DNA of 38,134 nt. Source: Burkholderiales bacterium (GTDB lineage: Bacteria; Pseudomonadota; Gammaproteobacteria; Burkholderiales; SG8-41). The position numbers and the translations under genes are program-made. The notes under the pieces were generated by a model that saw only the letters and a program-made list of their open reading frames with translations, did not search any database and was not told where the DNA came from. Location of the stretch: NCBI GenBank assembly GCA_022843705.1, contig JALHND010000017.1, forward strand, positions 1 through 38,134. Reading direction: 5' to 3'. Shown piece after piece: positions 18,328-32,633 of this stretch; the first letter of the stretch is position 1; each line of letters opens with the position of its first letter.

Positions 18328-18354
18328 TCCCCGATCAAATGCCCTGGACAAAAC

Positions 18355-18382
18355 AAAAAAGCCCGCAATTGCGGGCTTTTTT
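18355..18382. terminator. Bidirectional Rho-independent terminator
   Basis: The perfect palindrome GCCCGCAATTGCGGGC (18361-18376) is flanked by six A on the left and six T on the right. It serves the PEBP gene (+) and the cytochrome c' gene (-), whose stops are 69 bp apart. Confidence 0.95.
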
Positions 18383-18396
18383 GATCCTGCCGGAGA

Positions 18397-26280: not shown

Positions 26281-29200
26281 TTGAAACCCCGCACCCCCGA
26301 AGAACTCGAACACCGCCTGCGCAACCTGCCGCGGCCGGAGTATCCCGAAGACCTGCCCGTGGTTGCACGGCGCGGGGACATCGCGCGCGCGATCCGCGAA
26401 CACCCGGTCGTCATCGTCTGCGGCGAGACCGGTTCGGGCAAGACCACGCAGCTGCCCAAGATCTGCCTCGAGCTGCAGCGCGGCGTGCATGGCCTCATCG
26501 GCCACACCCAGCCGCGGCGCATCGCCGCGCGCACCGTCGCCACGCGCATCGCCCAGGAGCTGAAAAGCCCGCTGGGCCATGCGGTCGGCTACAAGGTGCG
26601 CTTCTCCGACAAGCTGTCGCAGAACAGCTACATCAAGCTGATGACCGACGGCATCCTGCTCGCCGAGACCCAGGGCGACCGCGACCTGCGGGCCTACGAC
26701 ACGCTGATCATCGACGAGGCACACGAGCGCAGCCTCAACATCGACTTCCTGCTGGGTTACCTCAAACGGCTGATGGGGCGCCGTCCGGACCTGAAGATCA
26801 TCGTGACTTCGGCGACCATCGATGCCGGACGGTTCGCGAACCATTTCGCCATCGACGGCAAGCCGGCGCCGGTAATCGAGGTGTCGGGGCGCACTTATCC
26901 GGTCGAACTGCGTTACCGGCCGCCCGGATTTGCCCTCACCCCCGGCCCCTCTCCCGCCGATGAATCGGCGGGAGAGGGGAGGTATCAGGCTGCCCGTCCC
27001 GGCCGGGCCGGCCCGGACAGCGATGAGGAATTGACGGATGCAGTCGTCGAGGCCGTGGCTGAACTCGCGCGCGAACGCACGGACGGCGACATCCTGGTGT
27101 TCCTGCCCGGTGAACGCGAGATCCGCGAGACTGCGGAGGCGCTGCGCAAACACCACCCGAAGGGCGCGGAAATCCTGCCGCTCTACGCCCGGCTGTCCTT
27201 CGAGGAGCAGGAGCGGATATTCAGGCCGCATGGCGCGCGGCGGATCGTGCTGTCGACCAACGTCGCCGAAACCTCGCTGACGGTGCCCGGCATCCGTTAT
27301 GTCGTCGACACCGGACTGGCGCGGATCAACCGTTACAGCTACCGCAACAAGGTCGAGCAGCTGCAGGTCGAGAAGATTTCCCGCGCCTCGGCCAACCAGC
27401 GCGCTGGCCGCTGCGGCCGTGTCGCCGCCGGCGTTGCGATCCGGCTCTATGCCGAGGACGACTACAATGCGCGGCCGCAGTACACCGATCCCGAAATCCT
27501 GCGCTCGTCGCTGGCGCATGTGATCCTGCGCATGAAGGCGCTGAAGATCGGTGACGTCGAGGATTTTCCCTTCCTCGAGGCACCGACGCCGCGCATGATC
27601 GCCGACGGTTACCAGCTGCTGGCCGAACTCGGCGCGGTTGATGCACGGAAGGAACTGACGCCGGTCGGCTGGCAACTGGCCAAGTTTCCGATCGACCCGC
27701 GCATCGCGCGCATGATCATTGCCGCGAAACAGCAGAACTGCCTGCGCGAGGTGCTGATCATTGCCGCCGCGCTGTCGGTGCAGGATCCGCGCGAGCGGCC
27801 TTTCGAGAAATCCGAGGCTGCCGACCGCGCGCATGCGAAGTTCGCCGACGACAAGTCGGATTTCATGGCGTACCTGAAGCTGTGGGACCATTTCGACGAG
27901 TCGATCAAACACAAGCAGTCCAACCGCAAACTGGCGCAGCAGCTGGCGGAGGAATTCCTGTCGCAGCGCCGGCTGCGCGAATGGCGCGACATCCACGGCC
28001 AGTTGGCCGCGCTGGTCGGCGAGCTGGGCATGCACCCCAACGAAACGCCGGCGACACACGAGCAGATCCACCGCGCGCTGCTCGCGGGCCTGCTCGGCAA
28101 CATCGGATTCAAAAACGAGGAGGGCGAGTACCTCGGCGCGCGAGGCATCAAGTTCAACATCTTCCCCGGCTCTGGCCTGCGCAAGGCGCAGCCGAAGTGG
28201 GTGATGGCCGGCGAACTGGTCGACACCGCGCGGCTTTATGCGCGCAGCGTCGCACGCATCGAACCGGAATGGATCGAACCGCTGGCGCAGGACCTGGTCG
28301 AGCGCCATTACTTCGATCCGCACTGGGAGCGCGAACGCGCGATGGTCACCGCCTTCGAGCGGGTGACGCTGTACGGCCTCACCATCGTGCCCAAACGCCG
28401 CGTGCACTACGGCGCGATCAATCCGGTGGCGTCGCGCGAGATTTTCATCCGCCAGGCGCTGGTCGCCGGAGATTACGCCACGCAGGCAAAATTTATTCAA
28501 TATAATCAACAACTTATAAAAGAAGTGCAGACGCTGGAGCACAAGGCGCGCAAACGCGACGTGCTGGTCAGCGACGAGGCGATCTTTGCCTTCTACGACG
28601 AGCGCATCCCGCAGGGCATCGTCAACGGCGCCGGCTTCGAGAAATGGCGGCGCGAGGCCGAGCAGAAAAACGCCGATGAGTTGCGGCTGACGCGCGAGTA
28701 CCTGATGCGCCACGCCGCCGAGGACATTACCGAAGCGCAGTTTCCGGACGCACTGCATGCTGGCGAGATCGAAGTGAAGCTGAAGTACCGCTTCGATCCC
28801 GGCCATCCGCTGGACGGCATCACCGCGACGGTGCCGCTGGCGCTGCTCAACAAGCTTGAGCCCGCGGATTTCGACTGGCTGGTACCGGGGATGATCCGCG
28901 ACAAGGTGGCCTTTGCTTTCAAAGCGCTGCCGAAGAACTGGCGCCGTCACCTGACGCCGCCGACGGAACATGTCACCAAATTCCTGCAGGCCGAAGGCGC
29001 GGCGCAGGGCGCCTTTGCCGACGCGGTGGCGCGTTATGCGACACGCGCCGCCGGCGCGCCGCTGACCAAGGAGGAGGCGGCCGCGATCGACTATCCGCCG
29101 CACCTGCGCTGCAACTATTGCGTGATTGACGAATCCGGCCGTGAACTCGCGACGGGCCGCGACCTCGCAGCACTGAAATCGCAGCTGGGCGAAGCCGCAC

Positions 29201-30093
29201 AGCTGACTTTCAGGGAGACCGGCAGCGGCATCGAGCGCGAGGGCATCAAGCTCTGGGATTTCGGCGACCTGCCGCAGACCCTCACCTTCACCCGTGCCGG
29301 GCGCAAGGTCACCGGTTACCCGGCGCTGGCCGATGACGGCGACAGCGTGTCGATCCGGCTGTTCGACGTCGAACAGGCGGCGCAGGCCTCGATGCGCGCC
29401 GGCGTGGTGCGCCTGATGCGGTTCGTGCTGAAGGAGCAGTTGCGCCAGCTCGACAAGAACCTGAAGGGTTTCGACCAGGCGGCGCTGCAGCTGCGCGGCA
29501 TTGCCGGCCCCGACGAACTGCGCGCAGACCTCGTCGGCGCGATCTGCGACCGCGCCTTCATCGGCGAGGATGAATTGCCCCGGGGACTGAAGGCCTTCGA
29601 AGACCAGGTCAAACGCGCGCGCGCACGGCTGCCGGCGGTCAGCGAGGCCGCCTGCCGGCTGTTCACGACCATCGCCGCCGAGCAGCACCAGCTGGCGCTG
29701 GCCCTGGGCGCGGCAAAAGGCAATGTCGCGCGCGCCGCCAATGACATCCGCGCGCAGAACCAGCGCCTGCTTTACAAGGGATTTTTTGCGGCTACGCCCT
29801 GGCCGCAGCTCGCCCATCTGCCGCGTTACCTGAAGGCGGCACTGCTGCGCCTGCAGAAGTATCCGGCGAACGCGGAACGCGACGGCAAACACGCCGCCAG
29901 CATTGCTGCGCTGTGGGGGCGTTACGAAATGCGCCTCGACCAGCAGCAAAAGGCCGGCACGGTGGACCCGCGGCTGCTCGAGTTCCGCTGGCAGATCGAG
30001 GAGTTGCGGGTGTCGCTGTACGCGCAGGAACTGAAGACGCCGTACCCGGTGTCGTACAAACGACTCGATAAATTGTGGACTGCGATGGGGTAA
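26281..30093 (+). CDS. hrpA: DEAH-box ATP-dependent RNA helicase HrpA
   Basis: This is a large RNA helicase, 1270 aa, matching the HrpA family. Motif I is GETGSGKTT at 48-56, motif II DEAH in IIDEAHERS, motif III TSATI, with STNVAETSLT and QRAGRCGR for V and VI. The ratchet and OB-fold regions and the long HrpA-specific C-terminal domain follow. The TTG at 26281 is the likely start; no strong ribosome site is seen, and the N-terminus is shorter than in E. coli HrpA. Residues about 218-236 (ALTPGPSPADESAGEGRYQ) are encoded by a perfect 34-bp palindrome inserted in frame between the two RecA domains. A short AT-rich, rare-codon patch lies at 28489-28522. HrpA resolves stalled or collided ribosomes in E. 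coli. Confidence 0.95.
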   Translation: MKPRTPEELEHRLRNLPRPEYPEDLPVVARRGDIARAIREHPVVIVCGETGSGKTTQLPKICLELQRGVHGLIGHTQPRRIAARTVATRIAQELKSPLGHAVGYKVRFSDKLSQNSYIKLMTDGILLAETQGDRDLRAYDTLIIDEAHERSLNIDFLLGYLKRLMGRRPDLKIIVTSATIDAGRFANHFAIDGKPAPVIEVSGRTYPVELRYRPPGFALTPGPSPADESAGEGRYQAARPGRAGPDSDEELTDAVVEAVAELARERTDGDILVFLPGEREIRETAEALRKHHPKGAEILPLYARLSFEEQERIFRPHGARRIVLSTNVAETSLTVPGIRYVVDTGLARINRYSYRNKVEQLQVEKISRASANQRAGRCGRVAAGVAIRLYAEDDYNARPQYTDPEILRSSLAHVILRMKALKIGDVEDFPFLEAPTPRMIADGYQLLAELGAVDARKELTPVGWQLAKFPIDPRIARMIIAAKQQNCLREVLIIAAALSVQDPRERPFEKSEAADRAHAKFADDKSDFMAYLKLWDHFDESIKHKQSNRKLAQQLAEEFLSQRRLREWRDIHGQLAALVGELGMHPNETPATHEQIHRALLAGLLGNIGFKNEEGEYLGARGIKFNIFPGSGLRKAQPKWVMAGELVDTARLYARSVARIEPEWIEPLAQDLVERHYFDPHWERERAMVTAFERVTLYGLTIVPKRRVHYGAINPVASREIFIRQALVAGDYATQAKFIQYNQQLIKEVQTLEHKARKRDVLVSDEAIFAFYDERIPQGIVNGAGFEKWRREAEQKNADELRLTREYLMRHAAEDITEAQFPDALHAGEIEVKLKYRFDPGHPLDGITATVPLALLNKLEPADFDWLVPGMIRDKVAFAFKALPKNWRRHLTPPTEHVTKFLQAEGAAQGAFADAVARYATRAAGAPLTKEEAAAIDYPPHLRCNYCVIDESGRELATGRDLAALKSQLGEAAQLTFRETGSGIEREGIKLWDFGDLPQTLTFTRAGRKVTGYPALADDGDSVSIRLFDVEQAAQASMRAGVVRLMRFVLKEQLRQLDKNLKGFDQAALQLRGIAGPDELRADLVGAICDRAFIGEDELPRGLKAFEDQVKRARARLPAVSEAACRLFTTIAAEQHQLALALGAAKGNVARAANDIRAQNQRLLYKGFFAATPWPQLAHLPRYLKAALLRLQKYPANAERDGKHAASIAALWGRYEMRLDQQQKAGTVDPRLLEFRWQIEELRVSLYAQELKTPYPVSYKRLDKLWTAMG
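26946..26979. repeat. Perfect 34-bp palindrome inside hrpA
   Basis: The arms CCCCTCTCCCGCCGAT and ATCGGCGGGAGAGGGG are exact reverse complements with two central bases (GA). With the preceding CCCTCACCCCCGG it matches a bacterial repeat whose translation (LTPGPSP) I recognise from intergenic copies. Here it is read through in frame as part of HrpA residues 222-233, in the loop between the RecA-like domains. Confidence 0.9.
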
Positions 30094-32606: not shown

Positions 32607-32633
32607 AAAAGCCCGCGCAACGCGGGCTTTTTT
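32607..32633 (+). terminator. Rho-independent terminator after Bug receptor 2
   Basis: The stem GCCCGCG / CGCGGGC with a CAA loop is extended by AAAA pairing with the T-tract; six T residues (32628-32633) follow. Confidence 0.95.

Follow-up and report, generated by a model that had tools for sequence, protein, structure and literature searches.

How does a palindromic repeat come to be read as part of a conserved RNA helicase, and what could have put it there? The question is raised by an hrpA gene in a stretch of DNA of 38,134 nucleotides from a Burkholderiales metagenome-assembled genome (MAG), referred to here as the window. The reading that we prefer, at a probability of roughly 0.55, is that the insert in HrpA is a copy of a dispersed palindromic element, and that elements of this class form a two-part system with a DUF559 endonuclease, in which the nuclease and repair copying would spread the palindromes.

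The insert in the hrpA gene and its protein

The gene (26281..30093, forward strand) encodes the DEAH-box RNA helicase HrpA in an intact and unambiguous open frame of 1270 amino acids with a TTG start. The product reaches 1616 bits against the NCBIfam model TIGR01967 (cut-off 722.75) and 1414 bits against PRK11131, and it matches the structure PDB 9ggr with E=0. The whole inserted tract, GFALTPGPSPADESAGEGRYQAARPGRAGPDS, lies at 26926..27021 on the same strand and corresponds to residues 216-247; its two ends are our own reading of the alignment. It contains a C-rich outer strand (CCCTCACCCC, 26933..26942), the third strand in a triplex-type layout like that of Holder 2015, then a pyrimidine-arm hairpin (26946..26979), and finally a second hairpin (26989..27021) that is partly decayed here and clearer in relatives carrying the insert, such as L028 and L029. 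Upstream of the first hairpin's arm stands CCCTCACCCC CGG, and the unit that recurs in other copies is 23 nt long, CCCTCACCCCCGGCCCCTCTCCC.

The hairpin at 26946-26979 had originally been predicted as a perfect palindrome of 34 bp lying in frame within HrpA. Its span and its position in the open hrpA frame are confirmed, but it is not perfect: the arms form a 16-bp inverted repeat around a non-complementary 2-nt centre (16+2+16). This is the longest hairpin in the window, where block shuffles (n=20) reach 11 bp at most, and the RNA fold of 26928-26990 has an energy of -38.9 kcal/mol (z -4.2). In the hrpA frame the inverted repeat is translated without a stop as LTPGPSPADESAGEGR. The linker that holds it measures 174 nt in the window against 87 nt in the empty alleles of two genomes of the same genus, G003 and G015, giving a net insert of 87 nt or 29 residues; the predicted insertion is therefore real but larger than the roughly 19 residues first proposed. 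As had been expected, the E. coli protein lacks it, and chain 9ggr has a gap at this position.

In an AlphaFold2 model of HrpA residues 1-700 (mean pLDDT 73.6, 23 sequences), residues 218-246 have a pLDDT below 50 and no secondary structure, with a strand (208-212) before and a helix (248-263) after them. The model agrees with the earlier placing of the insert between the RecA domains, in the RecA1-RecA2 linker, and with the idea of an insertion into a loop, here one predicted to be unstructured. A disordered loop between the RecA domains is the best picture of the insert that the model offers, and the intact frames suggest that it is tolerated in the cell.

Copies in other genes and empty sites in relatives

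The repeat is present in many copies. At no more than three mismatches to the 23-nt core, the window's own genome (G000) contains 16 copies against one for a reversed-pattern control, as the original prediction of further copies would have it, and the 23-mer at 26933-26955 is found unchanged in the copies at C81 and C93. Within the window no second copy is found at up to one mismatch to a 14-nt piece of the core, and the 15 matches at up to three mismatches are at chance level. In the family, 57 of 74 genomes contain the element, with 0 to 69 copies each (reversed control 0-1). Some copies stand alone, some precede a variable second hairpin, and others form inverted pairs; in five own-genome loci (L013, L018, L019, L020 and L021) the second hairpin has a freely varying stem and a recurring TGATG/TGATA loop. 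No Rfam family reached its gathering score on the element in 15 loci, including L024 and L031, and the frame stays open; all Rfam matches were below gathering scores except for one tRNA elsewhere in L016.

The 129 copies in five genomes of the genus form 115 clusters, most of them outside the conserved genes identified. At least 20 clusters lie in frame within conserved proteins, a list compiled by hand from translations and a lower bound, because some clusters at contig ends are absent from the set. A score threshold alone gave 16 candidates among 100 clusters, and the copies in NuoG and MetRS fell below it and were added from the translations. The proteins are HrpA (G000, G005, G007), UvrA (G000, and G005 at two sites, one of them in a C-half UvrA), NuoG (G001, G018, and G007, the last called from the protein sequence), LeuRS (two sites in G018, one in G007), MetRS (two copies each in G001, G005 and G018), AceE (G018) and a YdiJ-type oxidase (G007); outside the five genomes, RecJ of G010 carries the element as well. 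When the copies of the window's own genome were scanned for stop-free frames, UvrA was the only clear in-frame case besides HrpA. The UvrA loop between the signature and Walker B has 39-46 residues in 18 of 30 loci and 53-98 in the other 12, and among the long-loop proteins L227-L230 contain a paired element.

Empty sites are equally easy to find. The RecA1-RecA2 linker could be read in 53 of the 56 family loci tried, one per genome and the window's own included (L052, L176 and L183 were dropped, for want of the motif or because the gene was truncated). The element is present in 22 of these, 21 times forward and once reversed, and absent from 31; the call rests on the score against the 23-nt unit, where filled linkers reach at least 24 and empty ones at most 22, which leaves L157 and L186 close to the line. 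The reversed copy is that of L031 in genus g1, and a second one occurs in L052 of the same genus, which is truncated by a contig end and stands outside the 53. On a tree of the flanks, filled and empty linkers are intermixed, with at least 13 changes of state overall and six among the 17 members of the genus, eight of which are filled. Grouping the filled rows into one clade was rejected, for a group picked post hoc with the data already seen. The filled L026 and the empty L047 are sisters (support 100/99), and their DNA begins to agree just right of the insert. Since inserts at the HrpA site occur in several genera, they do not represent one isolated event. Among 80 named HrpA loci, one of which (L068) overlaps the genus member L056, the linker could be read in 59, and none of these had such a motif.

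Other repeats were seen in hrpA genes along the way. In L083, one of the 80 named loci and from a MAG, a related repeat (SLTPSPSPASGRGVHDSAGEGK) lies in frame at about 4025, near the C-terminal part and away from the linker, while L036, the gene of G031, has a different second insert in RecA2 (KHPFDRLRAGTPGAEI) that looks like another in-frame repeat family. The linkers of L190 and L194 (G036 and G062) run to about 90 residues and seem to consist of several nested palindromic repeats, and L038 has another low-complexity expansion in the same loop.

The core of the insert is conserved at the nucleotide level. Among six forward-filled members of the genus (L030, where the arm is replaced, was left out), 0 of 115 comparisons at fourfold sites of core codons differ. 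The corresponding numbers are 222 of 514 for the 60 codons on the left, 168 of 385 on the right and 28 of 147 for the remaining part of the insert; the pairs have common ancestry and the counts are given without a p-value. Beside the core 43% of fourfold sites differ, and only one of 638 flank windows is as low as the core. The core has 30 differences in 495 nucleotide comparisons, and these consequently fall elsewhere than at fourfold sites. The core could have been frozen by selection on the nucleotides, by copying from copies elsewhere in the genome or by recent spread, and the faster evolution of the remaining insert speaks against recent spread as the sole cause.

How many insertions these patterns represent is harder to say. 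One old insertion in the family ancestor, followed by vertical descent, recombination among relatives and several losses, would make the HrpA copy immobile and merely tolerated; we regard this as possible, if clearly short of even odds. All 21 forward inserts start in the same reading frame and at nearly the same site, and the identical frame would fit one old insertion better than many. The seven forward-filled alleles of g1 have DSDEELTEA or DSDEELTDA on the right-hand side in common, a segment absent from the empty alleles, which suggests that a single allele spread across the genus; the presence of another low-complexity expansion in this loop, in L038, also counts in favour of an old insertion. 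However, the element has the opposite orientation in two g1 species, L190 and L194 have several nested repeats, and the core stays near consensus while 43% of the adjoining fourfold sites differ, which is unexpected for an old neutral insert. A single gain with simple deletions is disfavoured because the empty alleles keep residues of the EEQDLEEA/EEKDLDEA type that are missing from the filled ones; with recombination, a single gain could still be accommodated. Under the preferred reading, the RecA1-RecA2 linker would be a permissive loop in which elements of this class were gained at least twice in the family.

A check for empty sites and for inserts in other proteins had been proposed at the outset, and the 31 linkers lacking the element, together with UvrA in the window's own genome and NuoG, LeuRS, MetRS, AceE and the YdiJ-type oxidase in the genus, answer both. 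What marks an insert of the kind seen in Rickettsia, a multi-copy palindrome in frame in a conserved protein with empty orthologous sites, is found here as well. As a likeness of behaviour the suggested resemblance to Rickettsia palindromic elements is thus supported, and with it the interpretation of the HrpA insert in the original prediction.

DUF559 endonuclease genes and flanking palindromes

A gene type that may account for the spread of the palindromes came from loci with a DUF559 domain, a family linked with Vsr-like nucleases in the accessible text of PMC12907096. Pyrimidine-arm hairpins were defined as those with a perfect stem and a 5' arm of 8 nt, pyrimidines throughout, a rule set after viewing the family loci, then fixed before the phylum loci were examined and left unchanged for them. 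The family set comprised 32 of 39 DUF559 loci, the others being of the wrong length, and the phylum sample the best-scoring 30 loci from 160 genomes with DUF559 among 397. Counted in successive 250-bp shells around DUF559, there were 62, 3, 0, 4, 0 and 1 such hairpins in the 32 family loci and 67, 5, 8, 4, 4 and 1 in the 30 phylum loci; the innermost shells thus hold 129 in total, and each farther shell of either set has 0-8. At least one lies within 250 bp in 53 of the 62 loci, on both sides in 26, and nine have none. Other 8-bp hairpins are also commoner near DUF559 (48 and 45 against 8-20 farther away), a three- to fourfold excess that gauges the plain intergenic effect. As a control, a pyrimidine-arm hairpin was found in 0 of 71 regions upstream of hrpA.

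The type of arm tends to follow the type of DUF559 nuclease. Arm type and DUF559 protein similarity correlate with a Mantel r of 0.41 (p 0.0006, 27 genomes), with kinship ignored, and of 0.48 (p 0.0002, n 25) in the family only. Nearest neighbours have more similar arms than all pairs in the family (0.92 vs 0.76), and weakly so in the phylum sample (0.85 vs 0.81). In G018 and G005, three DUF559 genes come with three arm types, two of them close. The number of element copies rises with the number of DUF559 genes (rho 0.45 in 74 genomes, 0.63 in 21 of the genus), again with kinship ignored. Against a DUF559 model stand the window's own genome, a MAG 92% complete, in which no DUF559 match was found, three genomes with at least 12 copies and no DUF559 match (G067, G072, G034), and three with at least two DUF559 genes and zero copies of this element type (G074, G077, G035). 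DUF559 counts may be low, because the model gave no match in the E. coli control genome although RefSeq names YcjD a DUF559 protein.

In some cases the nuclease domain itself has become part of another protein. In the MetRS genes of three species (L217, L267 and L312), a DUF559 domain lies between the catalytic and the C-terminal tRNA-binding parts, and between two oppositely oriented copies of the element, all in frame; in G001, G005 and G018 the flanking copies are CCCTCACCCCCGRCCCCTCTCCC. The Pfam DUF559 model scores above its cut-off at these places, and PRK09767 gives 84 bits for L217, 93 for L312 and 90 for L267, all below its cut-off of 218. In L392, DUF559 and related palindromes share one frame with HsdM, and the segment after DUF559 reads as the HsdM C-terminus; in L389 the domain is within an asparagine-synthase frame. 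L375, which has a CcrM match together with DUF559, and L374, L377, L380, L381 and L386 could not be resolved as in-frame inserts. Four further DUF559 domains among the family matches lie in frames of 776-945 amino acids. The DUF559 protein of L347 is homologous to 3hrl, an endonuclease-like protein (E=2.7e-29), and its resemblance to the mobile intron protein 3r3p is not significant (E=0.13).

The arrangement extends to plasmids. In five of six plasmid cases, hand-picked from 20 among the matches listed, hairpins defined by the rule lie within 250 bp of DUF559, namely in Azospirillum brasilense, Azospirillum lipoferum, Sinorhizobium meliloti, Sphingomonas parapaucimobilis and Synechocystis; the Pseudanabaena plasmid has similarly laid-out palindromes, recognised by eye only. 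On S. meliloti pSymB, the dimer that flanks DUF559 is found at 39 or more places on the replicon.

The mechanism that we propose runs as follows. An element would consist of a C-rich strand and, after it, a pyrimidine-arm hairpin, to which a second hairpin or an inverted partner is often added, and a gene for a DUF559 (YcjD-like, Vsr-like) endonuclease would be bounded by such palindromes. Cutting or nicking of DNA by this nuclease is the most likely first step, after which repair copying would spread the palindromes. Since the frames used are stop-free, a gene survives an in-frame landing in a permissive loop and is translated through the repeat. We infer from the linkage that it is the DUF559 protein which moves the palindromes, and that it does so by this route. 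A point against insertion driven by the nuclease is that we know of no strand-joining activity for nucleases of the PD-(D/E)XK type.

Another enzyme might move the palindromes instead, for instance a RAYT-type Y1 transposase, leaving DUF559 as a passenger or as a host-control nuclease that acts on them. REP elements with RAYT are a known precedent in the accessible text of PMC3733652, and the window's own genome, in which DUF559 gave no match, contains two Y1_Tnp genes. At neither of these two loci does a pyrimidine-arm hairpin lie within 250 bp (in L054 there is one some 0.8 kb off), as opposed to 53 of 62 DUF559 loci, and RAYT was rejected as the partner in this genome; even with only two Y1_Tnp loci to go by, we consider this explanation unlikely. 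Still more doubtful is a role of the hairpin in mRNA or DNA, such as slowing the ribosome at the RecA domain boundary, for which it would have been kept: the frozen core fourfold sites (0/115), the strong fold and the position at a domain boundary would suit it, but 31 of 53 relatives do without the element, the hairpin tips have decayed in L025 and L026, unrelated proteins have the element in their loops too, most copies lie beyond the conserved genes that were identified, and copying from other genomic copies would freeze the core too.

Relation to known repeat systems

Wolbachia palindromic elements (WPE) are short multi-copy palindromes that occur in frame in conserved proteins. The same is described for Rickettsia palindromic elements (RPE) in the accessible text of PMC3733652. 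The element described here behaves like both in these respects and differs from them in its host, a betaproteobacterial MAG lineage, and in having a type of endonuclease gene linked with it.

Palindromes within genes are already known from REPs. Di Nocera et al. 2013 (PMC3733652, accessible text) describe REPs within uvrA, recB, tRNA synthetase and RNA helicase genes; in two Xanthomonas species they occupy roughly the same position in recB. These GTAG/CGTC REPs are similar to the present element in being intragenic, uvrA, tRNA synthetase and RNA helicase genes included, but the accessible text gives no DUF559 link for them, and neither a GTAG nor a CGTC tag is found in 26930-26990 at the window copy. 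No link between palindromes and DUF559 was seen in the open-access literature searched, including the accessible text of PMC4666352, PMC3733652 and PMC12907096, and to that extent the flanking of DUF559 appears new. With REP/REPIN and RAYT the element shares inverted palindrome pairs, many solo copies and a partner gene of nuclease type; the gene linked here, however, is DUF559 (PD-(D/E)XK, Vsr-like) and not a Y1 transposase, so the proposed system would be a nuclease-driven counterpart to REP elements with RAYT. Vsr-fold homing endonucleases are comparable through the homology of the L347 protein to 3hrl, whereas no intron or intein was seen at the loci studied here.

A structural parallel is TM_ECO, a G/C-rich intrastrand triplex motif made of a C-rich stem, a G-rich stem and a second G-rich stem, with 23 very similar copies in E. 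coli MG1655 (Holder et al. 2015; PMC4666352, accessible text). The layout is alike, but the HrpA copy has 10-nt instead of 9-nt stems and a longer loop, and TM_ECO is always intergenic in MG1655, with no partner gene given in that text. The strict TM_ECO pattern (CCCTCNCCC N3-6 GGGNGAGGG N3 GGGNGAGGG) has 0 matches in the window and the 16 own-genome loci, and a relaxed pattern, with the stem set to 10 nt and the loop lengthened, is found in the window copy and in six of the 16. Because the strict pattern fails and the tag is lacking, the element is filed under neither TM_ECO nor the GTAG/CGTC REPs. In E. coli, one strict TM_ECO copy lies about 167 bp beyond the stop of ycjD, and a weaker hairpin overlaps the 3' end of the gene; the 8-nt hairpin rule picks neither of these two repeats. 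Matches to ycjD occur in 3365 of 5426 E. coli genomes, and in one genome that lacks it a different gene cluster lies next to fabI.

A wider version of the proposal, which we would put slightly below an even bet, is that YcjD-type DUF559 nucleases together with pyrimidine-arm palindromes of triplex type make up a class of mobile DNA in Pseudomonadota and cyanobacteria. A Vsr-like nuclease and not a transposase would spread the palindromes, solo copies, and at times the entire nuclease gene, would end up in frame in essential proteins as new segments or domains, the HrpA insert would be such a solo copy, and TM_ECO with ycjD in E. coli would be another branch. Within this one bacterial family, a repeat has fed new sequence into conserved proteins repeatedly, and the empty alleles of close relatives make the cost and fate of the inserts measurable. 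Beyond the family, the proposal supplies a candidate partner for TM_ECO and similar repeats, which are widespread orphans, and suggests what the common DUF559 family may do; E. coli K-12 lends itself to tests of either point.

Elsewhere in the window, palindromes with A/T tails at 18354-18383 and 32607-32631 resemble intrinsic terminators, and the otherwise GC-rich hrpA gene has an AT-rich patch (21% GC) at 28487-28530, which is translated as AKFIQYNQQLIKEV.
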